From positions 6,260,236 to 6,324,235 of the forward strand of contig JAJEKV010000071.1 in the NCBI GenBank assembly GCA_021234155.1: a stretch of DNA of 64,000 bases, read 5' to 3'. Positions within the stretch are counted from its first letter, which is position 1. Every line of letters begins with the position of its first letter. A model generated the notes under the pieces. That model saw only the letters and a list, made by a program, of their open reading frames with translations, was not told the origin of the DNA and did no database searches. Below are positions 11,721-52,914 of the stretch, piece by piece. Source of the DNA: Isoetes taiwanensis (taxonomy: Eukaryota > Streptophyta > Lycopodiopsida > Isoetales > Isoetaceae). Made by a program: the position numbers and the translations under genes.

Positions 11721-13563
11721 CTTCCAACTTGTGTTGGAAGTCAATTCAACCATAAGATTACAAAACCAACTTGTGTTGGAAGTTCTACGAACATTCAAAA
11801 CCTCCAATTAAACATCAAACAAAAAATGACCTTTTAGACAATCCACCTACAATCTGGAAGATCCGTCTCAAAAATTAACTAGAGCTCTCACTAAGAAGTG
11901 TTGCACCCAACTTGTCTTGGAAGAACAAATATTAATTTTAGGAAAACGAAACTTCCAACTTGTGTTGGAAGTTCTATAAGATTCCAGTTCAACCATAAGA
12001 TTACAAAACCAACTTGTGTTGGAAGTTCTAGGAACATTCAAAACCTCCAATTCAACATCAAACAAAAAATGACCTTTTAGACAATCCACCTACAATCTGG
12101 AAGATCCTTCTCAAAAATTAACTAGAGCTCTCACTAAGAAGTGTTGCACCCAACTTGCCTTGGAAGAACTTCAAAACTCCAGTTCAACCAAAAAACTAGA
12201 AAATCAAACCTCCAACACATGTTGGAAGAAAGCAAACCTCAATTTTGTATACCTATGAACTCAACCCTAAACCTTCACAAAGATAAGGACCTCTATACAA
12301 AAAAACTTCGGATGTTGAAAAACAAGCAAAACCTCCATTTTGTATACCTAGCAACTCCATTCATAATTCATTCTAGAAGTTAATATGACCATGACTCAAA
12401 GACTTCCAACTTGTGTTGGAAGCAAACCCCAAATTTTATTCTTTGAAACCCTAACCAAATTTAAGAAGACAAAACCCAAGTTTCTAGGAACATTCAAAAC
12501 CTTCAAACAAAAGATGACCTTTTAGACAATCCAGCTATAATCTAGAAGACCTATCTCAAAAATTAGCTAGAGCTCTAGTTCAACCAGAAAGCTACAGTAC
12601 CAAACTTCCAACACATGTTGGAAGCAAGCAAACCTCAATTTTGTATACCTATCAACAAACTTCAAAAGGTTGGCCACAACAAATATATGGAAAAAAAAAA
12701 AGGGTTCAAAGTAGGTGGTGCTTCATTAAATGAACCTCACTTGGTATGAGAAGCTTACTTCCAACTTGCGTTGGAAGTTCTTTGCAACTCCAATTCAACA
12801 TCAAAAAAATGTTGGGAGGTGGTTGCTAGTTTATTAAAGTTAAGCATGACTATAAAGCTATGAAACCAAACTTCCAGCACATGTTTGAAGCTAGGTTAGA
12901 GAATCTAGTTTTAACTTCCAACTTGCGTTGGAAGTTCTTTGCAAATCCTACTCAAACCCAACAAATGTTGGTTGCTAGTTATTAAAACTATGCATAACTA
13001 TAAAGTTACAAAACCAAACTTCCAACACATGTTGGAAGCTAGCTAAGAGAATCTAATTGTTCTAACTTCATGTTGGAAGTTAGCAACAACTAAGATCTTA
13101 GAAATATTCATTTCCAAGCACATAGTGCTTCACTTGGATCTCACTTGGAATTAAAAGCTTACTTCCAACTTGTGTTGGAAGTTCTTTCCAAATCCTACTC
13201 AACCCCAACAAATGTTGGTTGCTAGTTATTAAAACTATGCATAACTATAAAGTTACAAAACCAAACTTCCAACATGTGTTGGAAGCTAGCTAAGAGAATC
13301 TAGTTTTAAACCTCAAGACATTATAATATGTAACTTCCAACTCATGTTGGAAGTTAGCAACAACTACAAAACCAAACTTCCAACACATGTTGGAAGCTAG
13401 CTAAGAGAATCTAGGTTTAAACCTCAGACATTATAATATGTAACTTCCAACTCATGTTGGAAGTTAGCAACAACTAAGATCTTAAAAATCCATTTTCAAG
13501 CACATAGTGCTTCACTTGGATCTCACTTGGAATTAAAAGTTTACTTCCAACTTGTGTTGGAAG
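11721..13563. repeat. Array of 20-bp palindromes CTTCCAAC-N4-GTTGGAAG between the divergent E1 genes
   Basis: Thirteen copies with perfect 8-bp arms start at 11721, 11952, 12403, 12605, 12758, 12915, 13019, 13162, 13266, 13334, 13377, 13444 and 13544. About six degenerate or half copies are interspersed (11766, 11906, 12009, 12149, 12211, 12871). The 4-bp spacer varies: TTGT five times, ACAT three, TTGC two, TCAT two, ATGT one. Some copies lie in longer tandem units (243-bp unit at 11828 and 12071; related units in 12750-13600), but their spacing is irregular. They lie upstream of the fusion gene, probably in its 5' intron or promoter. Arm conservation with spacer drift is what protein-binding sites show. 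Confidence 0.9.
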
Positions 13564-15701
13564 TTCTTTCTAAATCCTACTCAACCCCAACAAATGTTGT
13601 TATGTTGGTTACTAGTTTATTAAAACCATGCATGACTATAAAGCTACAAAACCTAACTCAATAAATTATAAATCTAGGCAAAAACTAAACCTCAATGACT
13701 AAGACCTTAAAAAAGACATAGCAGGAAGCAATGCTTTATTGTCTAAAGCAAGAAATCTCATTTATTCATAAACTCAGCAAAATATAATGCACAGAATTCT
13801 TAAATTATTATTGTCATGCTACATAGTTTTGTGAAAGAAAGAAAACACACCTCTTTTAGTTGCCATCAATATGCAATAGCCTCAATATCCAATAGCCACA
13901 AATGATCTGTCATAATTTTAGGTGAAGATTGTCATTGGGTATAAAGAAATTGTAATCTCTTACGGTTCTATAGAATAGAACCGATGTTAATTCTTTATTG
14001 TGTATCTGAGAAAACATATGTGTTTATTGTGTGTCTAAGAAAACATAATGAAAATTGATGAGGATACCTGGGAAGAAATCTTGCAGTTATCACTACTCTG
14101 GACCTGTTTAGTATTTCTTTGCAACAGTTTAAGCACTGATTTGCACGAGATTAATGCTTCTTTGCACCAACTAAACCAGGATTACGCTTCACAAACACTT
14201 AAGAAGCTGATGTTTTGCAACAATTTTGAGAGACAGAAACGTATTTTTATGCTGTATTGCAGTAATCCTTCAGCCACAGTACTTAAGCCACAGTAAAAAG
14301 ATACATACTTCTCCACCTTTCTTGCAGTAATCCTTCTGTTACAGTAAACCTTCCTTCTGATACAATAATCACTCCGACACAGTAGCCATAGTAGAAAGCA
14401 ACATGTGCACTCCGCCCTTAGCCAAAACACGGCCGCCAAACACAATGGCAGAGCAAAAACGAATCGGAACAAAAAGGAGGAAAAAAAAAAAAAAAAAAAA
14501 GAACGAAAAAATCGGCATGTAATTCAAACTTTGATACACGTGGCATATAACCGAAAGAAATAATGGCATTAAAAATATATTAACGTTAATAAAACACACA
14601 TGGAATTAAAAACGTTTGTGGCAACGAATCTTGTAATTCAAAATTTCTTTTCCCGCATTCGAAGATCAAGGCCCAAGGCTGAAAGCATCTGAATCCTACA
14701 GCACTTCCACGATCATGGATCTGCAAGAGGTAAATCATAGCAAACTAATAAAATAAACACATTCAAAGTATGATTTGAATACTCCAAACCATTTCTTGAT
14801 TCGCAATATTCAATTTTATACTTTCTTGGGGCCGATCTCATGTTTAGACCAGCCCTATCCAAAGATTTACAGTTAAGAAATGCAACCAGGAATCTTGATC
14901 TGTGCGCGCTGATGCATGGTCGAATCTCCATTATCTGTTACCTGCAATGTTGTCCCCAAAGATCAGAGCGCTGAGAAACAAATGGTGTGACAAACTCGGC
15001 ATACAAAATGGAAGATTGAAGCAATCAAAAAGCAAACCAAACTTAGCTTACAGATCTTAGAACAGATGGCATGGCTTCGGCAAACGATTTGGCAAACAGC
15101 AGCAGTTCTGCCATGATAATGCACCCATACCAATCCCGTCACATTTTACAACAGATAGCAAGGCTTCGGCACAAATTTTAGAATAGATGGCATGGCTTTG
15201 GCAAACAATCTGGCTTCAGCACGATTTGGAGCAAAGGATTTGGCTTCAGCACGATTTGGGTGCTCCAACTGAAGCGCAATCTCTGGATGTTGAGCCCTCC
15301 AATTCAACATCAAAAAAATTCACTCCGCCCCATCATAAAGATCAAGCAATTTCTGAGATGATTTGCTTCAAGAAATCCAAGAAACAAACCCTCGCCGTGA
15401 GGAAAGATTCGAAAAACAGAAGATTCAGGTGTAAGAGAAGACATAGAACGGAGGTGGAGAAGAAGGGACTGGATCAAGGGCAAAATCGATGGAAAGAAGG
15501 GCAAAAAAGGGTAGAATAAGGTAAACGATTTGGCTTCGGCCGCGATTTGACCCATGATTACGCCATGACCTAATGGTTGACCCATGCCAGACCTCACCCT
15601 AGTTTTAGAATGCATAGAGTTTAGAGTTTTTCCAACCCTAACCCTAAATCCGAAAAGTCCCATTCATGCAGTTTGTTGTGATTTTTTTTTTTCCCTTATA
15701 A
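13564..15701. other. Non-coding part of the E1 intergenic region
   Basis: No supported gene. It holds an A-run of about 20 at 14479-14499 and short repeated phrases such as ATTTGGCTTCAGCACGATTTGG near 15205-15265. A 110-codon rightward ORF at 15187-15519 has no recognisable feature. Promoters or 5' exons of the two divergent E1 genes are expected here but cannot be fixed by eye. Confidence 0.5.
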
Positions 15702-16626
15702 CCAACGTATGTTGGATGCAGCTTTGGTGTTGGGTTTTTTTTTTTTTTTGTCTTATAACCAACATATGCTGGATTTGCACCTTAAATTTCATTTCATTTC
15801 GACTCCTCATTTAGTTAGGCCTAGGCTTTAAATTGTTTTTTTTAATTACCTAACCAATATATATTCTACGCAATTTAAAAGCGGGTCCTAATTTTATTAT
15901 TATTATTATTTATCCAGCCCATGTTGGAACGTTGCGTTTTTTGAAATATTCAAGACATCAACATTGCACCCTAAATTTCATTTCGACTCCTTATTCACCC
16001 ACATGCTTTAGATTGTTTTTTTTCTTAATTATCTAACTAATATCGTGCCATGCTATTTAAGGCTATTAGTTTCAGTTTTCTTACTATTCCTGTTGTATGT
16101 TTCAGTTTTCTTACTATTCATCCAACGTGTGTTGGAAGTTTGTTCATGTGTTTCTTGAGTACTTTCTATAAACTAACCATTTTCACTAATTCTCGTCACT
16201 TTGGTATTTGCATAGGTTGGAGCTAAGAGAAGCGAGCCATGTCATTGTGGTCTTTAAGGTGCATATAACTACTTATTTTCATTAAGTAGGTCATGCAAAT
16301 TGACTTAGCTTTAGAGTAATATTTGCATTTTCTTTGACACCTTTGAGCAACGCCTTTTGATATCAATGTGTGTCAATGGGGGCATGGTCTAAAGAGTAAC
16401 ATTAGTTGGACATAAGTAGCCTCAATAATGCAAGAAAATGTATTATTTTTCTTCCTTTGTGGCTAGTAACAATTTGATAGTCTAAGGCAGCCGACAAGAT
16501 TTTGGAAAACTTAACCTCTTTTGTCAAATGTAAGCAAAAGAACCTAAGACTTAATGAGGTGTCTTATGTAGTGCTTTGTTATATATGGTTCTGATGGATT
16601 GGCCTTGTAACATTCAACATGTGTTG
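15702..16626. repeat. Scattered palindromes of the CTTCCAAC family upstream of the DUF7869 gene
   Basis: Degenerate members at 15702 (CCAACGTATGTTGG), 15759 (CCAACATATGCTGG), about 15914 (half), 16121 (TCCAACGTGTGTTGGAAG) and about 16613 (CAACATGTGTTGGAA). The last lies in the first intron of the DUF7869 gene. With the 11.7-13.6 kb array, the family flanks both divergent transcription units and is not seen in their coding exons. Confidence 0.75.
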
Positions 16627-19600
16627 GAACTCTTTTACTATAGGTTCAAGAAGCTTGAAACAAATACATATTGGCATACCTATACAAAAATCAAGGCCAC
16701 TATGGCATCTCAGGTGTGTACGCCAGTAACCACTCAAAATAGGATATGTAATGTTTTATTATGACCATCATAACCGAACAGAAGTGCTACTTATACAGAG
16801 CGAGAAAGTAGAAGAAGGAATGCATGTTATGCTGGTGGCAAATGGTGCAAACATAGCCGAAGGAACAATATTCACCATGGACCCAAATAGATATTGCCAC
16901 AACCAAATATTAGGCGATGGATATGCCAGCATTTCTCTAAAGGTTGTCTATGAAAATCCGATTACTCCATCACATGATTATCTACTAGAGCACATTGGTT
17001 CTTTTGTGAGATGGAAGCAGAGCAATTTGAGACCACATTTTGGAGAAGCATCGGTGATTGAAGTTCATGCTTCTAGTTCCAAAGATACAGCATTTCCTAT
17101 AGAACATAGTCAGAAGTTCGATCGAGGTAACAGATCTACATGGCCAGGGCATACGGTCGTCGTCCTCGACAAGGAGAAAAATAAGTTGGGATTTGCTTTT
17201 ATTGTTGTGGCTTTTACAAATGAAGTTGTTGATGGTGCCTATTTAGGAGAAGATGACCTCGGGATTACGGTGTTTGAGATCGTAGTTGGTGTTAAGCCAT
17301 TCGAGATTGGAAAACTGATACGGTGGCCAATCAATAATTTAGCATTGCTCAATGGAGAATCATTGCTTAGACCAGTTCATGCAATTGATGAAAAAGATAA
17401 TAGCAACATGAATAAATACAAGCGTCCTTACCGTTTTATAAAGAGGAAGAAGGCTAAATCAATAGTGAAAGAAGTCAAGAACGATCCTTGTGATATGGAG
17501 AATATTGCTAGCGTGGCATCTATTGATTGTTGTCCAGATCATTGTTGCCAATATGCTGATAGAAAGAAAATTTTCATTGCACGAAGTGAGTATCATTCTT
17601 TAAAATTTGAAGACCAAACAACTTTTACCTATGATAGTTTGGCAGCAAGTGTGAAAGACGAAGATGGAAAATACAAGGGCATGTTATTTGATGGAAACAT
17701 TGTGTGTTGTAAAGGATGGTATACAATCTACGGAATTTGTAAGGCCACTTTTTATAATAGGAGAAATAAGTGGCTTAATGGAGCAAAAAAGGGCGTGCAT
17801 GGAAACAAACTTGTAATGCGATGTACAGAAAGGATGGAGGCTGCAAAGGTGGCACTTACACAATTGGTAGATGTTACAGCTAATCAAATGCCACACCGAA
17901 GCAGAATTACATGTGATGGAGAGAGAGATTATCAAAAGGTGATGCCGCCGACTTATAATATGAAGTCCATGTTAAAGGAAGTGAATGAATCTCTAAGCAT
18001 GCAAGGGCTACCCCACATCTCCCAATCTAGTTTTAGTCGAATGTGGAATAAGGATTTTAATGATGTCCTTGTTTCAAGAGAAAATAGCAGCTTCTCAAAA
18101 TGCGAAACATGTACAGATTTGAAGAACAAACTGGACAGCACAAAAAATCCACAAGAGAGGGAGATACTTCTTCATAAAATTGACAGACACAACATGGAGC
18201 AAAAAAGTTGTCGTAATGTTTACTATTCGTGGAGATATTTGTCTTTTGGCAGTCCACAAGAATATCTGTGTTTGATACATGATAAGATGGATCAAAAGAA
18301 GACATGCATTCCGAGACTAAGACCAAATCCAAACACTACAAAGAATGCTATGCAATTGCCTATGGCTTTAACAGGAATTCTCACTCATGGGCATGGCCCT
18401 TCTGCTTATGGCCATTTTGCCACATGGAATTGGTCATTTGACCCAAACTTTACAATAGGTTCTATTGCAAAATGTTTGTGGAGTTTAGAGGGTTTTAATG
18501 ATGGAGATAGAGGGGATTTGACTCCAACTTTTACTTCAGCAACGCAACCCCTTCATAAAGCATTGTTGACAAGAACAGATGGTAAGCAATTAGCGAGAGA
18601 AGAACATGGTGATTTTAAGCCCCTGCCAAAAGTTCTACTTTTACAGGTGGACAATTGTGTCTCTGAGAATAAAAATAGATATGTCTTGGCATACTTGGCG
18701 TTGTTAGTAGCAAGGGGACATTTCAAAGAAATATTGATGGCATTTCTTATGGTTGGGCATACACACGAAGATATTGATGCTTTCTTTAGCAGAGTTGGAG
18801 AAAGCTTAAGAATGCGACATGCTCACACTTTGCCTCAATTATTTGAAGTGTTTGAAACATGTGTATCTGCTAAAAATGTTCCATATCTCATACAAGAAGT
18901 TCCTGACTTTAAGAAATTTGTGGATGGCTATATAGAAGATGGACGCAATAAGTTGGTAGGGCATACCAAGCCATTACACTTTCGTTTTTATCTAGATGAT
19001 AAAGGAGCTCCAAAAATGCAGTATAAGGTGCACCCTAAGCAGGCATTATGGGAACCCGAAGCCGGTGTTGAACTTTTTAAAAAAGATGGAGATGTACAAA
19101 TATTACCTGAAGGTGAACCTGAGCCAGTGCCACTTACTGAACATATGAGAGAGGAGGAAAATATTATATCAGGTATTTCAAAATATATAGATTTTTGGAA
19201 AATAGGCTTGGAACGTCGTTATGGACAATCTTCCAATTATCATGAGGTAGTGAGACCAATTATTGCCTATTGGGAAAATGTTATAAAAGAGATAAAGGCA
19301 TCTCCAATAAAAAATACCAAGTTACAAGACGGATTTTGGCCCCGCTCACAATGGATGCTCCATCATGAGGCACATTTAGCTCCTACAATGATTGAATACG
19401 ACGAAGAACAGCATGAAGTGGTATATTGTGGCCCTGCAAGTGGTAAACCAAAAGAGGAATTTAAACCCGAAAAAGACATCATGGAGGGTATGTTTGTCAT
19501 TGTGAGGCCTAATGACGTGAAAGAGACTCCTTTTTGGCTAGGGGCTGCATTTACTAAACCGACTAAACACAATGACGGACAAAAAGATTGTCTTCGGATT

Positions 19601-19843
19601 CACGTTCAATGGTGGAAGCCACTCAGTAGAGGTAGCAAAACTTTGAAAGCTCAATACAAAGATTGTTGGACAAAAAAGTGGAAACCAAATCCAAGTGAAC
19701 AACGACAATGGGTAGACGTCCAATCAGTAATCTATAGTTGGAAAGCAAAATCCTCTGCTGTTTCTATGAAATGTCTTCAAGCGATACCTGAAGATGTTGT
19801 TGCAATTGTTCAAAATCATTTGGAATTATGTACTGCTGAGTGA
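16239..19843 (+). CDS. DUF8039-like + DUF7869 protein, probable transposase of E1
   Basis: Proposed exons 16239-16258, 16644-16713 and 16799-19843 (GT-AG introns, phases consistent) give 1,044 residues; a start at 16751 in the large exon would give 1,030. Residues about 37-105 and 145-215 are two modules of the DUF8039 type (ANGANIAEGTIF...LGDGYASISLKV...IGSFVRWK; then LGEDDLG...IGKLIRWP). From about 274 comes a Cys-rich start (CCPDHCC), GWYTIYGICKATFYNRRNKW, and a CETC knuckle near 465. Then follows the DUF7869 domain: D525/D528 in HDKMDQKK, LTHGHGPSAYGHF near 558, D648 in LQVDNCVSENKNRY, and GHTHEDID at 683-690. These acidic positions fit an RNase H-like transposase core; that is family inference. 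A short 5' exon beginning at an acceptor at 16216 precedes the ATG. Unlike every other large gene here, the main exon has no stop or frameshift, so this copy could be recent or active. Confidence 0.85.
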
Positions 19844-20000
19844 TTTATATGAATTCAAAAGTCTTTTGCATTTATTCATTTTGTTATATATATGTATCTT
19901 TATATAGTTTTTTTCCTTGAATATTTAAATAAATATTGAGATGTGATGAAGATCAAGCAATCAAAGTTTCAATTTGAAAATATAGATATGTCTAAAAACT

Positions 20001-20025
20001 TTGAATAAGTCTAATTTTTCCTAAA
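20001..20025 (-). repeat. E1 right TIR
   Basis: Reverse complement starts TTTAGG, A/T-rich, then TTAGACTTATTCAA, matching 3207-3231 with three mismatches. It is followed by TA (20026-20027), the duplicated target also found at 3205-3206. Confidence 0.72.
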
Positions 20026-21131
20026 TAAGTGGGACACAGAGTTTTTGACATGTCCATAGCTGCTCACAGAAGAATACCAAATCCCCAGGGATCTCTACCG
20101 TGCCTTTGATATCTGCTTGCTTCTTGGGACTCATATGATGGCAGCGGCCACCCTTTTTTTTTTTGGCCGACAAAGGCACGGTTCTTTATGTTGGACTCCC
20201 ATCATTGTCGGTCGTAAGCTTCGCCATTCCATACAATAGAGATCAATGCTAGCATTGACGGGGATCCTCCATGTGCGACCAAGAAAGTCAAGTCTTCCCC
20301 GCTTCTCGACTTCCCTCATGTTTACTATGATGCCCATCCGGGGCCATAAATTCCTCTCTCACCTCACCAAAGACGGGACTTGACAACAAGGCAAAGCTCT
20401 CGCCTTTTGTCGCCCTTTGTTGGGTCCACCGACTTCCCCAAAGGTATGGCTATAACAATCTCCATGAACCAAGACACGCCGACCGGGACGAGGGGTCTTT
20501 GATGTAACTACATTTTGTGCCTTGGTAGCAACTGGCTTCTAAGATAAACATGGTAAGAAAATGGCATGTATCCACTTAGCACGATGATTAACGTGATATA
20601 TGAAATGGGCAAGTCGCCATTTGAAGAAAATAAAAGACGTCGCCATTTGAAAATGCCTCTCTAATCTTAATGAGGTGCATGAGTTGCGCCATTTCCTATT
20701 CATGCACCTCATTAAGACCGAGAGGAGACTTCGTAGGCATCCTCGAGATGGCACACAAGCCATTTACATGAAATGGTGCACCTCGCCATCTCGAGGATGC
20801 CTTCATCAGTCTCCTTGTCTAATGAGTGCATGGAGGAAATAAGCCAATATGCACCTCATTAGACCAAAGGGAGATTTCGTAGGCATCCTCGAAATGGCAC
20901 AGATGCGTCATTTCATATAGCTACGGCTACTTAAGTTAAACCTCCTAAATACCGAGGTCACGCTATTTCTATATGGAAGGGGTGGCCACGGCTTGACCAC
21001 GCACTCCATGATATAGAAATGGCGTGTCCAAGCACCATTATAGTAGCCTATGCTAGTCTAAAAAGATAAGAATCAAACAAGAGAGAGACTAACCCGAGCG
21101 GCTCACGGATTTTCAGCGAAGATTGCGCCAT
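20026..21131 (-). pseudogene. 5' part of the E0 ParB/methyltransferase-like gene
   Basis: Leftward. Exon 1 (21131-21094) reads MAQSSLKIREPLG with a GTTAGT donor and is nearly identical to the first exon of the E2 gene at 43585. After a region with hairpins and frame changes (including an A11 run near 20155-20165), an open segment runs IKGTVEIPGDLVFFCEQLW...KLCVPL straight into E1. It continues in frame at 3206 as MSYIVRAKLSGNMPALMDSRW. The gene is therefore split by E1 into pieces 17 kb apart. The N-terminal sequence has no domain I recognise. Confidence 0.62.
20669..20801. repeat. Two perfect hairpins in the E0 5' intron
   Basis: Arms AATGAGGTGCATGA (20669-20682) and its complement (20700-20713), with the loop containing TTGCGCCATTT. 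Then 17-bp arms GGCATCCTCGAGATGGC (20736-20752) and complement (20785-20801). Similar sequence recurs unpaired near 20855-20900. Degenerate AATRGCGC-type palindromes are also nearby (20948-20967; 21018-21039). Confidence 0.75.
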
Positions 21132-37450: not shown

Positions 37451-38170
37451 ACACCAATAATTCACATCAATAATTTTACTTCACTATAAAAGCGGCTCCA
37501 TCGGGTGGTAGAGGTCATTCATCTCCCATTCTTTCCTTCGATCGTCAGGAGAACATCCAGAACCATCAAGTGCTACATGAGCTATAATGATCCGTATGAT
37601 TGCGCAATAAAGGGTGTCAAGATGGATCCATGGCTGCAATCCAAAAGCGAGATGGTCCTGCGGTGCTTTGCGGGAAGCTCACTCGTGTTGTGATCCACCT
37701 ATATTGGCTTCACGATCGAGATCTATGAGTTGAATGCCATCACCTCAAGGTGTTGATGATGAGTGAATCGATGATGATCTGTATACACGTTAAGGATATA
37801 ATAATATATAACATTATGATTTGTGTATCCGTTAATGTATAGAAATGCGAGTAATTAAATATTTCATACTTTAATGCGAGTACATGATACGTGTACACGC
37901 TTCAATGATGGCCACGGTCTACCCCAATAATTCACATCAATAATTTTACTTCACTATAAAAACGGCTCCATTAGGGGCTAGAGCTCATTCATCTCCCATG
38001 GATTATTTGCCTTCTTAATTTCACCACATCGGCGATCAAGTGCTCAATGAGCTACATCGATCTTGTGGGTTGCGCTTGATAGGGGTATTCTTCTTGATCC
38101 CTACCGCAATCCAAAGCCAATGGTGTTGAGATTCGTTGCCGGGCTGATTCGTGTTATGATCCACCTCATT
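37451..38170 (+). repeat. Tandem duplication with CACTATAAAA box and short ORF
   Basis: A segment starting CAATAATTCACATCAATAAT occurs at about 37456 and 37924. Each copy has a TATA-like CTTCACTATAAAA followed by CATTCATCTCCCAT, then a reading MSYNDPYDCAIKG.. or MSYIDLVGCA... in which the second copy is broken. The first copy can encode about 60 residues (37505-37693) of no known family. A leftward 67-codon ORF (37020-37223) just upstream is also unassigned. Confidence 0.6.
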
Positions 38171-38171
38171 T

Positions 38172-38768
38172 GGCTTCCCGGCCAATGTTGTCCGTCTGGC
38201 CGCATCGATTCAAATGCGTTTGGACGTATTTTTTGAAAAAATAACGTATTTTATACAATCACGTGCTTTAAAGTGCTTAAAATACGTTTTTTAAAAAAAT
38301 TGAGAAAAAGCTTAAATATAACAAATTATGCAATATAAACACAAACAGACTATTGGAAAGTTGGTTAGCATGTTTGTTTGCCATCTGGGAGGCCCAGGTT
38401 CGAATCTTAGTGGGTGCAAATTGAGTCTGTTTTGAGAAAACTGTATTTGTTTTTTTGAAAAAAGCATTAAGCATATTTTTTAAAAAATACGTGTACATGC
38501 GGTACGGTATGTATGGATTATAAAAAATACGCGTATTAGTACAACACTGTCCCCAGCGCAATAGCTATGAGATAAGTGGGATCACCACAGTAGATAATGA
38601 TGATGAGTGAATCACCATATAAGCACTTCTGACCATCTTATCTATGAATCATGTATGCATTTATATATTAAAGATGTAAGCAGTTATATATGATCACAAA
38701 TATAGTAATGTACAAGATCTTATGTATTAAGATGAAAGATATGTATTACAAGTACAAGATCTCATGTA
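38172..38768. other. Non-coding, AT-rich
   Basis: I see runs such as TTTTTTAAAAAA and a repeated phrase ACAAGATCT(C/T)ATGTATTAAGATGAA (about 38711 and 38755). No gene. Confidence 0.5.
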
Positions 38769-41700
38769 TTAAGATGAACAATGTGCTATGTCTTTCCACA
38801 TGTCTACAATATATTTCGGAATTTGGATTGTTTTCGGCCTCTTGCCATTGGCATCCCAAGCATAATGAATAGCATCTAAATTCTCGTACCTTGAAGGATC
38901 GGAAGGATTAGGCCGCCAACGCTTAGTTAAGGTCCTTGTAGTCCCCTCCAAAGGCTTCCACCGGGATACAAAAATATGGCCAAAATATGTAGATTCGGAT
39001 CAAAAACGGCATTCTCCCTGCATATCCTAACCAAGTGGCGGTGTTATCATCTCAGGTCGACTAGAACAAACATGCCCTTTGTCACATATGCGTGAGGATC
39101 AAACTCTTCAAGAGGCAACACTGGGCGGCCATCGGCGGGCCACAATATGATGGTAAAGGTCGGCGTGACCAAAGGCGAATCGCCGACCTCGGAACAAATC
39201 TTTGTTTGTTCTAGAGGAGCTTGTCTTGTTTGTGGCCAAAATGCATCATTTTGAGGGCGTCCCGAGCAACATCCTCCAAAGAGATAAGAAGTCTGGTTCC
39301 AATACTCAACACTTGCCGGTGTATTGCCTTGCAAACAAGCTACTTTCTTGATTCTTACATATGTCCTTCCATAGGGGAGATGTATTTGTTGATGCTATCC
39401 TTCAACCCCGGAAGATCCTTCAATGTTGGTCTAGGAGGAATATTTTGTGGCACACCACTTGGTAGCATTGGCTGACCATGTTCATCCTCTTTCCACATTC
39501 TAACTCACGGAGAATCTGGCTGGAAGCCACTCTTTATGTGTAGGACGATGTTGTATTGCATAACGGGCCAATCTCCGCCATCTTAAATTTGAAGAGCAAT
39601 GGTTCAAGTATGTCCAACTAGCGTTGGCCCTTATCGGGGATGAATCCCTTCACAAAAGCCTTCCAATTTGGAACTTCATCAATAAAGTATGGAATTGGAG
39701 ATTTTGCATTGCACTTATTTGAACAAGTAAAGTAGCTCGGTAGTGTCAAAGCATCCAGATGAACTCATCAAGGTTGAAAAATTTCCAAATAAAGCATCAA
39801 TATCATCATGGGTGTGGCCGACCATCATAAAGCCCACTTGGATCTCATCAAAGACCTTAAGCCAAGTCAAATAAGATAAGTATGAAAAGACATACCTATT
39901 TTTGTTTTGCCTTACGATGCATTATCAAGTTGCAAGTAGAGATTGGGGGAGAGGGTTGAACACCTCGGGATTCGTTGTAGTTGAAGCATTTGGCAATACT
40001 TACGCCATAGAAGCATGTTTGTTCTTCAAAGGATTGGTATCCTTGATTTGCTTGCATCCATTTGCAATCTGCGGGCTTACTTCCACATAAGTCACCTATC
40101 TTGTCCTCTTGTACCAATTCCAAGTTATGCAATATCCTAGAAAGTGAACCAATGTGGAAGTTTGAATCATCTTTCCATAAATCAAGTGAGAAATGACCAT
40201 AGGCACGACCACCATGCCCATGAGTGAGCTCTGTCAAAACGCTCTTCAAGCGATCACCTCTCCATACAGATTTTGCTAGATGATGACTTTCTAGGCACTA
40301 AAGTCTTAACCCGATCCATCTTATCATGTATTATACATAGATGATTTTCGGACACCGATGTGACAATGCTCTCAATGCCAATATTGACTTCTGCAAGAGC
40401 GTTGCTCTAGCATATGAGCCCGGCGTTGAATTGCAAGATTTCGATCTCTCTCTTGTATCTTTTGTTTTTCCAGCTTTTGCTTAATTACCACTTGCCAGAT
40501 GTTGCATTTAGAGAAGGCTGTATTTTTGCAATGCTAACATCACGGAAATTCTCTTTTCCATATACTATAAAAAGAGTTCAAGGCTACAGATGTTCCTGTA
40601 AGCTCTTCAACCACAGCACCAACTTCTTTATATATAAGCTTCTTATTAAGAATGGAAGGAAGCTTGCGTACATTTTCTCTCACATCATCTCTACCTCTTT
40701 TGCTCCTATGGGGAATATTTTCAGCATTCTCTGAATGAATGAATCCTTCTAGCACACATTCGGTGTGGCCAATGTAGAAGATCTAGGCTAAGAGCCAGTA
40801 TTACCATGTTCAGCTACCTTTCCACCTGCTTCAAATCTATTTCTCCAATTGTAAAATGTTGTTGGTGATACCTAAAGCCATGCGCCAACCAGCCAGACAG
40901 AATTCCATCCCCTTGAGCACTATCCTGTCCTCTCCTTCTCCTGTGTAAGTCACACTCAGCACGTCAAAAAAATATGTAACCCTTGCATTGTATGGTTGGG
41001 ATAAAAATTCTTTTCTTAATTCACATACTTGATGCTTGGTAAGTTTCTTGTTGCAAGTATTTTTGCAGCAGCTTGACTTCATAAACTTGTTGATGGAACT
41101 TGTGGAGCATAGCCTTTCATCTTTGGTCTTTCCCTTGGGCTCTCTTGGAATTCTTTTTGTGTAAGTATACTTCCTTTTTCGTTTGAATTGAGCCTGAATG
41201 TTATCCTCGAATGATTCTAGCTCTATATCCTCATTTTCTTTAGCTTCTCGAGCTTGCAGATGTTGTGAGACAGTCCTTCCATCCTGCAGCACCACATCGC
41301 TATTTTCCCATTGTACAAGTGCATTTTCTGCTGGCCTTTCTGCACAAGCATGACATTTGAGATCCTCTGTAATTAGTGCAGGAAAGACCTTTCCCACACA
41401 GAGGCCCACCTTTGAGTCTCCTAAAAATTCATCGTCAACAGCATCCTGGGGATCACTAAAGAGAATTATGGCCTCTGCATATTTACTTCTGTCACATGCA
41501 TGAAGAATGTGGCAATGCTTATCCAAGAGATCTGTTCTTGAGAAACTAGCTGGTGGTTCATCATCATCTGATGCTATTCTGCGAGGAAATCGAGTAGCTA
41601 GATCCACTGTAGGATCAATTTCTTCATCTGCATCTTACACTGCCTCTACAGATTCTATATTCGAGGTCAGTGGTGGAGTAGCTAAATCAATGGCATTCCA

Positions 41701-41919
41701 TCTTATATCCTGCCGAGGCCATTCGATATACGTCCCCACAGCCTCTTCAATGTTGTCCGCACTAGCACATGGAATCGGAAGGATGTGGGTAGGCACTACA
41801 GCCTCGGTAACTTGCACTGCTACGTTGAGTGCGTCAACATTCTTCCCATGGATGGAAGTTCTATTCACCCAGACACCCTTACCAACCACAGTATTATTAC
41901 TGACAAGGTTCACCACCAT
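38769..41919 (-). pseudogene. DUF8039-like + DUF7869 transposase-like pseudogene of E2
   Basis: Leftward and collinear with the E1 protein. NNTVVGKGVWVNRTSIHG...VGTYIEWPRQDI (41919-41635) is DUF8039-like. After one in-frame TAA the frame continues to LKGMEFCLAGWRMALGI and a Cys cluster CCKNTCNKKLTKHQVC (to 40837). A 1-nt shift then gives TFYNWRNRFEAGGK, and another frame KLPSILNKKLIYKEVG...YSIWKREFP (40755-40540). Then LTHGHGGRAYGHFSLDLW (40249-39896). Finally WNQTSYLFGG...AFWPQTR and the C-terminus WRPNPSDPSRYENLDAIHYAWDA (38951-38769). At least one nonsense codon and several frameshifts; dead. Protein-level similarity to E1 is clear, nucleotide similarity is low, so the two elements are old relatives. 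Confidence 0.75.
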
Positions 41920-42417
41920 ATTCTACGTCTTTAGCGTCTTTGTTTGAAGGAGCGGGCGTCGAATCGAAGTCGATGATGTTGTGGAGGGACTACTAGGCAA
42001 GTTGGGGGTTTCGATTATCGAGGCGTTCCGATGACACGGGTGAGGCGGTTTCCACAGTATTTTACTTGATTTGAGGCCATTCGATAAATGTCCCCACGGC
42101 TTGGCAATGTTATCGCTCCCTCACTGCGGAATGGGAAGCACATGGGTGGGCACTATGGCTTCGGTGACCTCCGACCACATTGCACCATGGAATGTTCTGC
42201 GCCATGCGAGATGGCCTCTATGCAATTCATGTCCCCCCGGCAGCTACCACATCCCCATCGACAAGCCACGCGGGGCCTTTTCTGTAAGAATCAATACACA
42301 TACATACTTGTTAAAGACATGCAACCCTCCATGACATATGCATAGTAAAAATAGTTGAAAATTTGAAAGAAATTAGGCGACATGGGACAAATGGCGCGGT
42401 ATTTGCTCCATTTTTTA

Positions 42418-42600
42418 AATGGCTAGTCGGCGCCATTTACCTTTAAATAAGCGCGCAGGTAGCGCCATTTAATTTTACAACAAATGGGCCATTTTCCTTT
42501 GCCGGGTAAAGTGGGGGGCTTGCATTTTTATCGAACGCGGAAAATTTGCGCCATTTAAAGCAAAATGGCCATTTACCTGGCAAAGGAAAATGGCCCGTTT
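42418..42600. repeat. Palindromes and inverted repeat in the E2 intergenic region
   Basis: AATGGCTA-GTCG-GCGCCATT (42418-42437) is a degenerate 8-4-8 palindrome. A 22-bp inverted repeat pairs 42482-42503 (AAATGGGCCATTTTCCTTTG...) with 42579-42600, one mismatch. Several GCGCCATTT half-sites lie between. Confidence 0.75.
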
Positions 42601-42963
42601 ACACGTACATGGCATCTTTAATCTAAATGCTATATCTAATGTTATGGTATCTTATTACTACAAGATTCAGCAATCAAAGAAAATGTACCCTTTAAGACAT
42701 CAATTGTTGAGAACTTATCTACTGACGCAAAATAGAGAAGATGTACCCTTCAAAAACTTAATCTGTTTAGAATTATGGTCAACGAGCAACACACTGAAAA
42801 GAATTCTCAGTAAATACACAACATTAACCTATACAATCTACCATCTCCAGATCCATCCTACATCAACTACAGTGGGAGTACATATTTAACATACTAAAAC
42901 TGCATAGCCTCTAACCTGGAGGTCATTGAGGATTCCGGATCTGCCATCAAGATTGAATGCGCC

Positions 42964-43110
42964 TCAAGATTGAAGACGAGCGCCTGAAGAATGAGGACGA
43001 GCGCCTGAAGAAGGAAGACGAGCGCCTGAAGAAGGAAGAATGCGCCTGAAGAAGGAAGACAAGCGGCCAAGTGAGAAAGCAAGCGGCCAAGTGGGAAAGA
43101 CAAGCGGCTA
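42964..43110 (+). repeat. 21-24 bp minisatellite, readable as DERLKKE heptads
   Basis: About four units of GAAGACGAGCGCCTGAAGAAG followed by three units of AAGCGGCCAAGTGGGAAAG. In one rightward frame the first part reads (EDERLKK)n, a coiled-coil-like heptad repeat, then TGA. It may be a decayed coding repeat or a simple minisatellite; position is 0.5 kb upstream of the MTase-like gene. Confidence 0.8.
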
Positions 43111-43584: not shown

Positions 43585-45639
43585 ATGGCGCAATCTTCGC
43601 TCAAAATCCAAGAGCCAGGATCAGGTTAGTTTCTGATGTTTCTATTCTTAGCTAGTTTGAGTAGCGTTAGATAAACTATAATGGCGCGTCCGCGCCATTT
43701 CTATAGGAGAGGCCGGGGTTGTGACCACTCAGGAAGATCTATACTATCAGAATATGCAGAGTTTTATCTGGACAGATCAGTGACCTGGACCTACTTCAGC
43801 TCAGTGTCGATGTCAATGATATTGTTGCCAAGACAGTTTTCAAGGAACCCTATGTAGACCAGATTCATCATCTGCGAAAGCAGTATCAGGAGTGCGGAAG
43901 ACCAGCTCCTGCCGGAAAAGGCCAGTCTAGAAGTGACGAGTACAAGGTACGTTCACGTGTGGTACAGTTTTACGTTTACATTTACTATTAGTGGTAAATA
44001 GCGCAGCGCGCCATTTACCACTAATAGCGCAGCTGCGCTATTTGTAGTTAATGGCGCAGCTGCGCTATTTGATTTGCCATCGCTAATTCTAACGTCGCCA
44101 ATTATATTGCAGCACTACCTTGAAATGGCTGAGAAGATTCTCAGAGGCAAACACCCGAAGGACGTCAATAGGTTTGTCTTTATGCCAGATGATGTTTATG
44201 CACTTTTCCGTCAGATGTAGAACAAATGGAGGAAGGGAGAACTTAAGGACAATAAGGGTCAAGCTATAGTAGTCAACTTTGCAAAAGACAAAGACTACTT
44301 TAGTGACAACTATCTTAGATGCATGAGGGGCTTGGACTACGATGATTATCGAAAGGTTCTCGAAGAAACATTGAATGGGGACATATACGTCAAAGTCACC
44401 TCATATTACAAAGGAGAGAATTTCTTCAAGACGAGAGCGCAGAACTTAAGAACTCTAGCATATATGAAGAAGGAGATTCTGCATTTCATATCAGATGAAC
44501 TAGGCACTAAGTACAAGAAGTTCGAGGATCTAAGGAAGGCCACCGACCATTTTTCAGATATGACACTTCTGGCTTGGGGAGTATGCCACCATAAGTGGGT
44601 ATCGGAAGGAATACTCAAAGAGGGAGTTCATGGTAACATGCCATTCTCCTTGGCCAGATCTATTAGAAAAATCCTTAAGCCCGAAACAGAAAAGGACTTG
44701 CCAAGATACTTTGTTGAACATGTCACTGCCGGGGGGATTCCGCTGGAAAAGGCAACGCTGCCTGCAAGCATGATATGTTTAGATGCAAGGCAACTTACTC
44801 CTGTTTGGAATAGTGAGACTGTAACAGCATTCTTCGACAGCGTCTCACAGATGACAGATGTAGAGACTTACTGGATTCTATGTTTCGTCAAGCCGGAGCA
44901 AAACTTTCTATTCGCCACTGCGCTTGAACGACTAGAATCCAGGTCAAGAGTTTTTGTGGGAATGTATGAAGAGGAGGCTGGAGCTACAGGTGCCACAAGC
45001 TCTCGTTCTTGCTACGAGGATTTCTGCACACACGGGAGAGCCTGATGAAGACCTGGATCTCAGGCTGTATGGTAATCATCCTCGGAATCTCCCGGCAATT
45101 CCTCCTATTCCTAAAGAAGCCATCGGAAGTGAGGGAGATGTTATGGCTAAAACTCACCGCAAGGCGGGTTTAAATTCGGTTGGCAAGGTATGGAAGGAGA
45201 ATACCTGGTTCATAAGCAGATTGGTCCTGCAACTGCGTTCTACCTTGTTGATAAGCTCTGCCCTCCAGGTAACATCGTACTAGATTTCTTCTCTGCTGGA
45301 GCCTTCTCTAGGGCATCACTTCATGTAGGAAGAATCAGTGCGACATATGAGCATGACTTCGGAAAGATCAAATGCATAATGGGCATTCTGGGTAGGGTCG
45401 AGAACGTCATATACCCCTTGCTTGACCCAAAGGCCATTGGCGCACGCGAAGTTCTGACTATCAAAGATGGTGGAGCAGCCGGGGCAGAAAATGAGGGGGA
45501 CGAATCAGGTGCTCATGCAGAGAAGGGTGAGACATCCGGCCAAGGTGGACCTGAGGGGGAGGAGCAAATTGACCGCAGTAAGATTAACATTGAAGACTAC
45601 GAGAAAGTCAATGATGAGCACTTTGCCCACGACTACTAA
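43585..45639 (+). pseudogene. Methyltransferase-like gene of E2 (ParB part missing, broken)
   Basis: Exon 1 MAQSSLKIQEPGS (43585-43624, GTTAGT donor). An exon ending SRSDEYK (donor 43947). An exon from 44113 (HYLEMAEKILRGKHP) with TAG at 44218-44220, where the E0 relative has TGG (Trp). Then an open stretch KWRKGELKDN...FEDLRKATDHFSDM...PASMICLDARQLTP (to 45045), a frame change, and GEYLVHKQIGPATAFYLVDKLCPPG followed by NIVLDFFSAGAFSRASLHVGR with TYEHD (45200-45370). This last part fits the SAM-binding C-terminal motif of N4/N6 DNA methyltransferases. It ends with an acidic tail at 45639. No DPPY-type catalytic motif is visible, and the charged linker plus ParB-like region present in E0 are absent between exon 1 and the SVDVND segment. 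No FCP1 domain follows. Confidence 0.7.
43680..44069. repeat. AATRGCGC-N4-GCGCYATT palindromes in introns of the E2 MTase-like gene
   Basis: AATGGCGC-GTCC-GCGCCATT (43680-43699) lies in intron 1. In the next intron are a long inverted repeat around GTGGTAAATRGCGC (43987-44026), the perfect palindrome AATAGCGC-AGCT-GCGCTATT (44023-44042) and a one-mismatch copy (44050-44069). The equivalent intron of E0 carries AATAGCAC-AACG-GCGCCATT (2165-2184). Confidence 0.88.
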
Positions 45640-45735: not shown

Positions 45736-45990
45736 AAATAGCGCGAGCGCACTTTTTGCTTATTCTTTTCGTGATAGCAAATAGCGCGCCTGCACCATTT
45801 GTTTGGTTTCACGTTAAAGCAAATACCGCGTCCGCGCTATTTGCTTCGTCATTAATATCGCGGTCAAGGCCATTTTGTTGCCGTTCACCGGACTTTTTTT
45901 CGCATTTCAATGTATACGCTTTTGAGGTTTTCGGGGCGCTATTCCTTACATTTTCCTAGTAAATCGCGCCATGGTTCTCTTCTAAAAATC
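45736..45990. repeat. AATRGCGC-family palindromes downstream of the E2 MTase-like gene
   Basis: AATACCGC-GTCC-GCGCTATT (45822-45841) plus degenerate relatives near 45737 and 45779, and half-sites to about 45990. They lie just inside the right TIR of E2. Confidence 0.75.
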
Positions 45991-46159: not shown

Positions 46160-48480
46160 AATTGTTCATAATAGAAGAACGCTAGAGGGATCCACAACCT
46201 CTCATATTGCTAATCCATCATAATGTCATAATAGAGCAATGGACTCACGTCCGTGATCTAACCATCCAATCCAACAAGATTCAGTGCCTTAGACTTGAGT
46301 CCGTGAAATACACACAAAAAGAAGAAGAGAATAATCGAGGTGTATGAAATGGTGCAATGCAAAAACTCAATAAGGAAATACGAATCAGTGCCCGAGCAGT
46401 CAGATCATGATTAAAATCAAAGGTGAGTTGGCCTATTTATATCCGATTACATTCCCAGGTTATGTACACAACCTGCTGGCATTAAAATCCCTAAATCACA
46501 AGAAAATAAAATTTATCCTCCCTGATGTAGATGCTCCCTGGTTGTTCTTTAAGATTGCGTAAAACTCTGATGTGATCATGTGATGACAGTTTAAGACAGT
46601 CATTAAAAAGACCTGGTTTGGTACATACTTGGAGATGAAACGAAGTAGCCATCTTAGTTCAATTTTGTGTAACTCTTGGAGCTCTGCAATGATGATTCAA
46701 ATCTCTCAACGCATTTCTTAAAACCAAGAAAAGGAACTGCCAAGAACATGTCCTTCAAAAATTTACTATTTTTGGTAATAAAAGGCATTAATGATAGAGC
46801 ACAAAAATACAGCTTTGAAATTGAGCGCGATGAAAAACCTAATCGGATTCTTTGAGATAGGTAAGAGGCTCTGTGTGATTCTTCCTTCTTGCTTCTGGTA
46901 ATCTGCATGACACACTCTCTCGAAAATCCAAGGGCTCAAACACCAAACAAAAGTCGGTTCTATCAAAACCGAATCAATCCTGGATGCTGCAGCCCCATCT
47001 ATCCTCCTATTTTCTAATGTCATCGCCTCATCTCGCATGATCTTGCCGCCACTATTTGTGAAGCACCGAACCGGGAACCTTAGGGCAAGCGCCAGAATTC
47101 AAAAGCGCCCACGAAGTCGATGTTAACTGGGAATAGAATTTTGGGGCTGCCACGTGGCACTGCCCAATAATTCGGAATAGAAATCAGGGGCTTGATTCCG
47201 CTGATCCCGTCGAGCACATGCCATTTTGTTCAAACATCAGGTAATTTTTCTCTCCCCCTCTTCAGCAGATCCTCCCTCTTCCGCCGGTTGTGGGGCCTTT
47301 GCTGCCGATTGTAGGGCCTCTGGCGAGCTCCATTCCCCTGCACATCATATACTTTGCATCATTGCAATAATGGTCTAGGTTGGTGCCAATTATTGGTCAA
47401 TTCATGTGTAAATTATCCCTCACACACACAGACAGAGACTCAAAAGTAGAGAGTCTTAAATAGTTAAGCTTTGAGTTAACCAATGGAGTGGGCATAGTTC
47501 ACAAACTTGAGCTTGTGTTTCAAGTTTTAGGCATACAGAACTCATAGAATTGTATCCATTATCTAAGATTTGGATAGAATTCACGGACTTCAGTCCGTTA
47601 TCTTAGATTTGGATAGGCCTATCCAAATCTAAAATTGACTGTAGCATAATTCCATTATTGTTGCTTGAGATTGTGTCGATTATCTAAGATTTGGATAAAA
47701 TTCACGGACTTGAGTCCGTTATCTAAGATTTGGATAGACTTGACTGTAGTATTATTCAATTATTGTTGCTTGGGTTTGTCACTTTCTACTCTTATATAAT
47801 TTATTCACACCAAGATTCGATTCCTTGATGCCTTAGATTCCCGAGTGAGGGAAAAAATCGCGAGGGAAAAATATTTAGGGAAAAATAGCAGATGAAGCCA
47901 CGTTCTTATCCTTATCCGCTTCAACTAGCATCTACTTCAGCACGCGTTTAGGCGTGGTAGTCCGATCTGAGGTTTGAAGCCCCAGGTGGCGAAATCCATG
48001 AGGAAGGATTCACCGGCGTAGCCATAGCTTGCTGCCTATATAAGCCGAATCTTCCTTATTTTGTTTGTTCGAAGGCTTTATTGGATGAAAAGTATGTCTT
48101 TATTCCATTGCTTCTTGAATCTTCTACAATATGGTCTGAATAGCGATTATTTTGCCCGCATTACAGTAAAATACGATTCAGACGGAAACCAAGGTGATTT
48201 ATTTATTTGTATAATCCGCTACGGTTAAATTATGGGTTCTTTTCTTCTACTATTCAACCGTTTTGTGATAAAAGGGCTTGATTATGAAAGCCCGATCTTT
48301 GGACAATCGCCGAGAAAAATTGGTGAGAATATACTTTGTTAGTTGAAATGTACGGATTGTTTCTAACGGAGCAAGAACATCTTACACGAATTGCAGGTAA
48401 TGATTTGTTAACTAAATGCTTACTCTACATCTTTGAATGGTCATATTTACAGAGCTTACTCCGCAATATGGTTGGGTTCG
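46160..48480. other. Gene-poor stretch with ACGGACT palindromes and a tandem duplication
   Basis: No supported gene. It contains half-sites ACGTCCGTGA/GAGTCCGTGA near 46250 and 46295. A tandem duplication of about 130 bp (about 47551-47665 and 47682-47785) shares ATCTAAGATTTGGATA, an ACGGACT palindrome and ATTATTGTTGCTTG. Confidence 0.5.
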
Positions 48481-48483
48481 TAG

Positions 48484-50052: not shown

Positions 50053-50478
50053 TAATGATTTGGGCAAGATGCAGCTTATTTGTAAACATATAAAGTGGTG
50101 TTACCAACATAAATTCGATGTTGCAACAATGCAACTCTTATTTCCTTTCCAAGCAAAAAAATTAGTGTTTGTGCGTATGAAGTGAGCTTTTAGTGATGGT
50201 TATTGTTTTATGATGTAAACTACTTGGGCAATGCATGCCATTTTGCGACTTCCACTTCCGATGTGTAATGATTTGGGCAAGATGCAGCTTATTTGTAACA
50301 TATAAAGTGGTGTTACCAACATAAATTCTGATGTTGCAACAATGCAACTCTTATTTCCTTTTCCAAGCAAAAAATTAGTGTTTGTTTGTATGAAGTGAGC
50401 TTTTAGTGATGGTTATTGTTTTATGATGTAAACTACTTGGGCAATGCATGCCATTTGCGACTTCCACTTAGATGTGTA
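50053..50478 (+). repeat. 213-bp tandem duplication
   Basis: Unit beginning TAATGATTTGGGCAAGATGC at 50053 and 50266, nearly identical over the full length. Non-coding; shadow ORFs on the minus strand merely repeat. Confidence 0.9.
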
Positions 50479-50861
50479 ATGTCTTCCAACCGTCAATTGG
50501 AATTGTTTGACAATGACATGCTTTTGGGCCCCTGCAAGGGTGTCCTGACATGAAGACTTGCAGTAAGACATAACAGGTTATTCTCCTTTTAACTTCTGGA
50601 TTTAATTAGAACAAATGGGAATTTAAACATTAGTAATAAAACATTTATCATTTAAAACACGTTTTGTATAATACTTAAGCCAAACAATGAATATCAGTGG
50701 AAACTGTTGGTCCTATCGAAAGCGATTCATCGTGTAACCGGTCTATTAAAAGGGAGAACCATGCATCTATTGCCTCAGATTTGTAAGTCCGCCATATCTT
50801 TGAGGATTTGGGCATGAAAGCAAGTGTCGAGAATTTTTGGGAGACATGGGGCTGGTCATGT

Positions 50862-51225: not shown

Positions 51226-52914
51226 ATGAAGGCCTTAACACAAAGGTGAAGACCTTTGTACAACCTTATCTTTGTATAGGTTAAATATTGACATGTGCAG
51301 TATAGCTTCTCGAAATGCTCATGTTCCATGTCTATCAAGCAAAAATCTAGTTTAAAATACTAGCAGTGTATGTTATATTATTTGATGTTATATTTGTGTG
51401 GTTAATTCAAGCAGGCATTGCATTGTCAAATGTTAGACATTATGATTTCATACAGAAAGATTTTTGTATACTGATGCCCAAAGGGAAGATAAATGTTCGG
51501 TTTGAGATCCAATTGGAGATGGTTTTCACGCCAATTCCAAGTTGACACAAACTCCCTCATAGTGCATTTAGGAAAGAGAACGTCGCTGGCCTTGGCCGCC
51601 GCGATAAGTTTCTTGTAGAAATAAAATACATAGAGTCATATGGTTCATGGAATTTCATCCATTTCTAAATATATGGCTCGTCCCATAGTTTAACATAAAG
51701 TTCAAGCTATCTTCACGGACTTAAGTCCGTGATTGAGCTGCTTGCTCATAGGAATTTTCACAATATTGAGCTCGTAGTTCATAGATTTGAGTCTATAACT
51801 TGGGGCTCAAAATGTAGGACTTAACATTAGCATGTAATTGTTGGTTTGGGATTTGCTTGTTGTGTACTATAACTTCTCAACTTGATTGTTGGCTATGTTC
51901 ATCGTTACTTGTTGGTTGGGGCTCTTCTTATATTGCATATACTATTGTCTGTACATGATTGATTTTAGAGAATTTATGACTATAATTCGCAGGAACATTA
52001 TTGTAGCTTACATCGATGTTGTTGGATTTAGATTGGGAAAACATTGTAGATAGCTCCGTAATATTAACCTAGCCAGAATATCCCAACCCTAATCCTTATC
52101 ATTCTCCTCACCTTGACCCTAAAACCTGACATGCAAAGAGAGGCTTATATTACAATCTCTTGGGGTCATGCCTAGGATTACATTTAGGGGGTTATCATTT
52201 TCATGCTCTCTATATAAAATAGGTTTTTAAGTTAGGTTTTTTATCATGTTAAACTCGAAATTTGCAAGCTCACTTTGTCACCCATATGGATTAGGATTAG
52301 GGCCAAGGCATATAAGGGATAGGATTATGCTAGACGTTATTAGGTTTAGATACACATTAGGACTATCTACAACCCTTTTTTTGTATGCCAATGCCATTAC
52401 TTAGATTTAGGCATGTAGCCATTCATATTGTTTTTTTGTGGCATTTTTATGAGGGATTAGCGTCCTAGAAAGAAGATGTAAAATTTTTGCAAAGCAATCG
52501 CACAACAAAACCTGCATTTTAGCCCCTCTTTTTCTTATCTGCAATCAAAGCATTCACAGATCCTTTTTTAACTGCAGTCAAGCATTTGTAGAAATATAAA
52601 ATGGTCTTCTTGCCACTTGTGCCATAACATGTAACATTTCTTGTTGTAGACATATAAATTATTTTTAGGTTCACGGAATTAAATATGCAGCTTTGACTTC
52701 TTTTTTATCGTGGTACTATACAAATCATGTTATATATAAATATGTCTAAAATGGTAGACATCCATCTGAAATGTAGTGTCCAATGGACGATCAATGATAT
52801 TCATGGTGCACTTGAAGAATAAGAGTCACTGAAGACTTTGTTTGAAACATAGGGAAAAACTCTGAAATACCCTTATGTTTTGCTAAAATTAACAAAACGC
52901 CCCTAGTTTTGGGG
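51226..52914. other. AT-rich non-coding
   Basis: I see no gene. The only recognised element is the palindrome at 51713-51732. Confidence 0.5.

Follow-up and report, generated by a model that had tools for sequence, protein, structure and literature searches.

Mobile elements that may recognize their own DNA have been described in several systems. In Ectocarpus, the giant DNA transposon Sola1-1_Ec32 carries, on the opposite strand from its transposase, a gene with ParB-like and N6/N4 methyltransferase parts, and its authors suggest that this and related algal transposons bind and mark their own sequences (PMC12477816, which cites Iyer 2011 and the Bostrychia genome). Sola2 has an AT-rich 4-bp target site duplication (PMC3627910). 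In Arabidopsis, VANC, the anti-silencing protein of VANDAL transposons, acts through family-specific arrays of noncoding motifs (PMC5735166; see also PMC10398659); the VANC21 motif, YAGTATTAY, is an oriented, non-palindromic sequence of 9 bases, and VANC6 motifs are also found in the unrelated AT9TSD1 (PMC5735166). VirB, a ParB-family protein, offsets the silencing of promoters (PMC10653881). The current work concerns a 64,000-nucleotide stretch of Isoetes taiwanensis (contig JAJEKV010000071.1, positions 6,260,236 to 6,324,235; hereafter the window), which contains E1, a DNA transposon with terminal inverted repeats (TIRs) nested in an older element, E0, and a further element, E2. Short palindromes accompany these elements and their relatives, and each lineage has its own version. 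On balance, these palindromes are probably lineage-specific, parS-like candidate sites of the element's own ParB-like (ParB-methyltransferase) protein.

The elements resemble Sola1-1_Ec32 in being giant DNA transposons with a ParB-methyltransferase-like gene on the strand opposite the transposase-like gene (PMC12477816). The passages describing Sola1-1_Ec32, however, name no binding sites, whereas the Isoetes elements contain seven candidate palindrome families, and the methyltransferase of E1 and E2 is degenerate. The 4-bp target duplications of E1 relatives are a further likeness to Sola. A ParB-like protein with candidate palindromic sites recalls ParB/parS and VirB (PMC10653881), although ParB homology is weak here, the arrays are lineage-coded and the proteins have methyltransferase-like domains. 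With VANDAL/VANC, the Isoetes elements share short, family-specific, noncoding repeat motifs that change with the protein, and the VANC6 motif in AT9TSD1 parallels the E1 motif in a long interspersed nuclear element (LINE); the protein family is different, however, and the sites here are palindromic. VANDAL elements are of the Mutator-like (MULE) type with a long target duplication. The 4-bp duplications and the presence of DUF7869 instead do not fit a VANDAL/VANC assignment, and the VANC model gave no match in Pfam scans of the element open reading frames (ORFs). TnpA of En/Spm is an element protein with many short subterminal sites in the element DNA, whereas the present sites are palindromic and internal.

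The palindromes of the window are as follows (none is assigned to a strand).

11721-13563: E1 palindrome array CTTCCAAC-N4-GTTGGAAG, with 13 perfect copies and 15 at no more than 2 mismatches
16119-16138: outlying E1 palindrome on the transposase side, with 1 mismatch, from the motif scan
43680-44069: E2 palindromes AATRGCGC-N4-GCGCYATT at 43680, 44023 and 44050, with another at 42418 (2 mismatches)
45737-45841: E2-type palindromes with 1-2 mismatches, directly past the E2 ParB/methyltransferase-like gene, from the motif scan
47581-47721: two TCACGGAC-type palindromes (47581, 47702), 1 mismatch each, in a repeat of 121-bp spacing
51713-51732: perfect TCACGGACTTAAGTCCGTGA palindrome, from the motif scan

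A preliminary description of this DNA reported 13 perfect-arm copies of the E1 motif, and exactly 13 were found at 11721-13563, against a mean of 0.02 in shuffled sequence; at no more than 2 mismatches the window holds 16, the final one at 16119-16138. The motif AATRGCGC-N4-GCGCYATT, attributed to E0 and E2, was likewise recovered, with three exact matches (complementary arms at 43680 and 44023 only) and six weaker ones, namely 1 mismatch at 2165, 45780 and 45822 and 2 mismatches at 20893, 42418 and 45737, against a shuffle mean of 0.03 in the window. The third motif, assigned to 46-52 kb, does occur, but the family is thin in the window because it consists of one perfect copy (51713) and two copies with 1 mismatch (47581 and 47702); no ParB or DUF7869 match was found in the window near the palindrome at 51713-51732. 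Altogether, 21 perfect 8-4-8 palindromes are present, 13 of them of E1 type, and far fewer such sites appeared in the shuffled-sequence control. Thus the palindromes first described are real, and the phenomenon is larger than was described.

The elements and genes to which these sites belong are listed below.

3202-20030, no strand: E1 TIR DNA transposon, about 16.8 kb, delimited by the homology limits of the copy on contig C279, 30-bp inverted repeats and the nested insertion
3202-3231, plus: E1 left TIR, which runs into an 8-4-8 palindrome at 3218
20001-20030, minus: E1 right TIR, from the inverted repeat and the C279-copy border
8505-11677, minus: E1 ParB-like gene with a degenerate methyltransferase-like tail (ORFs 10058-11677, 9225-10064, 8910-9221 and 8505-8906)
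16730-19840, plus: E1 DUF7869 transposase-like ORF of 1037 aa (PF25273, E=7e-49)
774-3201, minus: left part of E0, a fragment of an E2-lineage ParB/methyltransferase-like gene, with an E2-type palindrome at 2165 (1 mismatch)
20031-20523, minus: right part of E0, the 5' piece of the E2-lineage gene split by E1, with an E2-type site at 20893 (2 mismatches)
38749-42219, minus: E2 DUF7869-like gene, broken, from protein matches
43728-45636, plus: pieces of the E2 ParB/methyltransferase-like gene, from ORFs and protein matches

Homology between E1 and its second copy on contig C279 stops on the right at 20030 and on the left at 3193, some 9 bases beyond the left TIR. The 30-bp TIR has 926 matches in the genome at no more than 3 mismatches, and its reversed control has 0. 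Target duplications of 4 bp, read by eye with ATG taken as the TIR start, were present at all three end pairs inspected elsewhere: AATT (C279), TAGA (C1038) and AAAA (C1043), the last in A-rich DNA. No matching 4-bp duplication was seen at the E1 copy of the window. Of the Sola characters, terminal inverted repeats are thus present in E1, and the AT-rich 4-bp duplication in its relatives. One E1 TIR end type carries an 8-4-8 palindrome of its own at 3218-3237, TTAGACTT-ATTC-AAGTCTAA, which is absent from the other end type. The two halves of the E0 gene on either side of E1 adjoin in the relative L003 (positions 5410 and 5407), so E1 was inserted into an older ParB-like gene of the E2 lineage. 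E1 is nested in E0, yet each side of the border has a separate motif. The E1 ParB-like gene gave 112 genome matches from 80 scored candidates. In the transposase-like gene PF25273 (DUF7869) was the only family matched, and this term was not found in the literature searched.

In the 1.66-Gb genome, perfect-arm sites number 731 for the E1 motif, 3253 for the E2 motif and 81 for the third, and the reversed-motif controls for all three gave 0. Twenty test loci were picked blind to palindromes, 14 by a ParB-like match (38-68% identity over matched pieces) and 6 by a DUF7869 match; they represent six palindrome families (E1, E1p, E2, A, B and C), copies of the same family being non-independent, and the seventh lineage, T, is known from loci fetched for the motif itself. 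A palindrome of the own lineage was present in 20/20 loci at no more than 2 mismatches, from 2 sites (L027) to 26 per locus, and in 0/4 random loci, the random controls L032 and L033 having been left out as all N. The proposed association of the palindromes with ParB-like/methyltransferase-like elements is therefore upheld. Equal density away from such elements, which would refute the association, was not seen in the random loci, which had none; for E1 the refuting condition does apply in part, because many E1 sites sit in LINEs, outside these elements. Cross-matching between motifs was confined to pairs that differ by one base per arm (E1/E1p and B/C), and L020 combines an E1 set with a C set. 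When repeated palindromes were sought de novo, without reference to any motif, the result was a family of at least 3 copies in 16/20 loci and of 2 copies in 4/20. Shuffles never exceeded 2, and nine control stretches gave 1 in eight cases and 2 in one; five of these stretches are chunks of the window, of which one (36001-43000) spans the DUF7869 region of E2 and two share 2 kb with each other.

Seven palindrome families were identified in total. Their logos are AACTTCCAAC-acgt-GTTGGAAGTT for E1, ACCTCCAAC-ATAT-GTTGGAGGT for E1p, AAATGGCGC-N4-GCGCCATTT for E2, TCACGGAC-TTAA-GTCCGTGA for T, GCCAAAGTGTATTCCGGAATACACTTTGGC for A (13 sites), GGTATGAATTCATACC for B and CGGTATAAATTTATACCG for C. Common to all is a near-perfect palindrome of 16-30 bp, in which N4 denotes the weakly constrained centre of some lineages. 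The centre is often itself palindromic and a spacer is often absent, B and C having no loop; the 8-4-8 arrangement, once supposed to be universal, is only one of several geometries. Lineages A, B and C (L022-L026) have the outer half-sites GTAT-N6-ATAC in common, with lineage-specific centres. Arm sequence varies little within a lineage (1.0-2.0 bits at the majority of positions), the centre being the least conserved part in E1, and members of the E1 clade differ by CTTCC against CCTCC in both arms.

The location of the sites follows the gene architecture. Of 27 element loci, among which seven had been fetched for their palindromes, 18 show both a transposase-like and a ParB-like gene, and the two genes are divergent in 18/18; the remaining nine loci show the ParB-like gene only. 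For five of the 18 (L022, L023, L025, L026 and L027), an ORF upstream of the DUF7869 match, without a Pfam match of its own, was taken as the transposase side, and in L004 this side was assigned by eye. The gap between the divergent genes holds 112/130 sites (no more than 3 mismatches) in the 13 of 27 loci where both starts are clear, E1-type loci and L025-L027 being left out, and further sites occur in some introns of the ParB-like gene. In the ten E2-lineage gaps, only 6/89 sites lie in the middle third. Coding matches contain 24/351 sites, against 126.7 expected, and these 24 include sites of L025-L027 in stop-to-stop ORF tails, which are probably introns. The earlier statement that no copy lies in a coding exon is thus true as a statistical tendency but not absolutely.

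The arms of the sites are also better preserved than their surroundings in several lineages. When repeat copies were compared without regard to the core, E1 arms were 0.945/0.984 identical at a flank identity of 0.645/0.736, E2 arms 0.841 and 0.944 at flank identity like that of E1, and A arms 1.0. Mismatch at CpG was 0.05 in E2 arms and 0.02 in T arms, compared with 0.26 and 0.65 in the respective flanks; in the E2 flanks CpG decays no faster than other bases (0.24).

The ParB-like proteins of E1 and E2 are homologous (hhalign 99.5%, E=1e-22, 15% identity), and lineage A/B matches E2 at 90.8% in profile comparison. The ParB N-terminal domain has a box of the type G-x-x-R-x-x-A, and box-like stretches (GNHSVxAAQ, GQHSMRAMQ and GGNHSFKAR) were seen in the present proteins; the TIGR03764 match is weak. 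PDB profile searches with A1, A2 and A3 returned no relevant relative, a tblastn search of phages with L027 gave no match, and in an IMG/VR scan with A3, 0/190 pattern matches were confirmed. Single-sequence structure prediction of the ParB-like part of E1 was unusable, with a predicted local distance difference test score (pLDDT) of 34. DUF8039 proteins, which had been suggested as one candidate binder, were absent from the ORFs scanned against Pfam. The methyltransferase is intact in lineage B (L022), where PF01555 exceeds its cut-off at E=5e-15, the D-x-P-Y and SAM motifs read DIPYG and DAFSGSGT and the MboIIA chain matches at E=2e-7. In A (L026) and C (L024), DIPY alone was read, and L027 has DIPC. 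In the E2 lineage, PF01555 reaches only E=0.11 (L003) and the motif reads LDARQLTPVW; in E1 no DPPY motif was found by eye, and both enzymes are degenerate. Methylation marking in every lineage was rejected on this ground, and since E1 and E2 have lost the catalytic motif, binding alone would have to suffice there.

Changes of motif follow the lineages of the protein. In a tree of the N-terminal domain with 22 rows (E1, E1p, E2 and T; A, B and C lie outside it and L001, with 52 aa, was dropped), the four motifs need 3 changes, which is the minimum, against a shuffled mean of 10.7, although seven of the rows sit on long branches and there may be false joins among them. E1p is placed inside E1 with modest support (85/70). 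The suggestion that arm sequence co-evolves with the protein agrees with this tree, but the change is a slow drift: the E2 motif is retained down to 45% ParB-like identity (L008), so the code drifts slowly.

The E1 motif is also found in a LINE-type repeat. L036-L039, which contain ACGT-centred E1 sites, are copies of one repeat, 82-86% alike, and L037 encodes the endonuclease domain PF03372 typical of LINEs. Ahead of the endonuclease ORF, this repeat has a unit of 68-70 bp in which CTTCCAACACGTGTTGGAAG, identical to the E1 palindrome, stands once or twice; in L037 the palindrome falls inside another open frame. Each lineage has its own arms, as was proposed, but those of E1 are not strictly private to the element.

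Other features of the window include a third gene region of E1.

3984-7722, minus: pieces of an NLI-interacting-factor (FCP1-like) phosphatase (PF03031, E=4e-11 for 7240-7722)

Within it, 4005-4226 and 4436-4549 match a query set that includes the L006 phosphatase and were assigned by eye. The FCP1-like phosphatase (PF03031) also occurs in an E1-lineage relative (L006, 7336-8103), and the motif reads DMNG; the usual motif of such phosphatases is DxDG. ORFs at 33286-36104 with a YADD motif, read by eye, suggest a LINE reverse transcriptase. A tandem duplication of 213 bp with 95% matches lies at 50053-50481, and a long inverted repeat at 52914-53237, with 32-nt arms 97% complementary and inner 111-nt arms 76%, is possibly a small hairpin element.

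A number of observations weigh against the palindromes being sites of the ParB-like protein. TIGR03764 matches lineage A (L026) at E=0.0021, far under its cut-off, DUF6551 matches lineages A and B at E=0.02-0.03, the E1 and E2 proteins matched neither a ParB model nor any relevant PDB chain, and profile comparison of lineage A/B with E1 gave no more than 18.7%. The best family found de novo in L012 and in L027, with 2 copies each, differs from the lineage motif (1/100 shuffles of L012 also reached 2). Among six singleton E2 and T sites, four fall within element DNA, and within 2.1 kb of the other two no element was matched. Clustering at gene starts is not seen for T and B sites, of which 11/23 are in the middle third. 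Arms are no better kept than flanks in T (0.648 against 0.640), in B/C (0.425 and 0.661 at flanks below 0.8) and in seven E2 pairs with near-identical flanks (0.875 against 0.912); the low-identity cases of T and B/C are perhaps chance alignments. Few independent changes lie behind the co-variation of motif and protein. Moreover, the 31-base LINE-type context of the E1 motif recurs at 441 genome places at no more than 3 mismatches, a number to be compared with the 731 perfect-arm E1 sites; all 441 are presumably this LINE, and a shared host factor becomes possible.

Such a host transcription or silencing factor, recruited separately by the elements and the LINE, would account for these 441 places, and the E1 consensus centre, CACGTG, resembles a host G-box. 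The seven palindromes, however, track element lineages, which a host factor does not predict, and this explanation appears distinctly unlikely; G-box binding itself was not retained, since no part of the E1 sites is less conserved than the centre. It is unlikely, too, that the palindromes bind the DUF7869 transposase, joining ends or repressing its own gene in the manner of En/Spm TnpA sites. A transposase-like gene stands beside the palindromes in all 18 two-gene loci, the DUF7869 protein of L008 has a weak helix-turn-helix match (E=0.0014) and could be the binder, which counts further against the ParB-like protein, and subterminal arrays of TnpA type are known; but the E1 array lies 8.5-10.4 kb from the left TIR and 6.5-8.3 kb from the right, away from the ends, the palindrome of one TIR end type is a different one, and introns of the ParB-like gene hold sites too. 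Since all sites are inverted repeats, and 8-4-8 could form a stem with a 4-base loop, their shape rather than their sequence might matter, as hairpins in RNA or cruciforms in DNA, a very improbable reading given that the arm letters are nearly fixed instead of co-varying and that B and C have no loop. That the palindromes are neutral by-products of tandem duplication in promoter regions is scarcely credible: many copies do lie inside repeats, for example with units of about 49, 59 and 148 bp, but in E1, E1p, most E2 bins and A the arms have diverged less than the flanks of the repeat unit that holds them, and the palindromic symmetry common to all lineages is left unexplained by duplication. 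A stronger form of the parS analogy, in which a ParB-type clamp would spread over and mark its own DNA against host silencing, in lineages with an intact enzyme by N6A or N4C methylation, and the LINE copies the E1 code for the same protection, is conceivable but rather doubtful.

The ParB-like protein as binder remains the favoured reading, with VANC, VirB and Sola1-1_Ec32 as its precedents (PMC5735166, PMC10653881, PMC12477816), and the interpretation first offered for this DNA is partly supported. In the proposed mechanism, an element consists of a DUF7869 transposase-like gene and a divergent ParB/methyltransferase-like gene, with palindromes of 16-30 bp in the intervening DNA and in some introns. 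The element protein would bind the two half-sites as a homodimer, and by loading at many palindrome copies it would govern the two promoters in elements of its own family and no other. The likeliest effect would be to keep the element transcribable against host silencing, the alternative being autoregulation. In lineage B, and perhaps in A and C, the apparently intact methyltransferase may also methylate the sites, whereas E1 and E2, with the catalytic motif lost, would bind without methylation.

ParB-methyltransferase genes in eukaryotic transposons have already been noted and suspected of marking self DNA (PMC12477816). The current work adds candidate recognition sites, in seven lineage-specific versions with natural changes of specificity, so that binding and self-recognition become directly testable; no palindromic sites for such transposon proteins were reported in the literature searched, largely outside subscription papers. 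If the favoured reading is true, these elements would give, after VANC, a second example of private motif arrays that manage silencing, the LINE would be a possible cheater, and each family would find its own DNA by a self-recognition signal.

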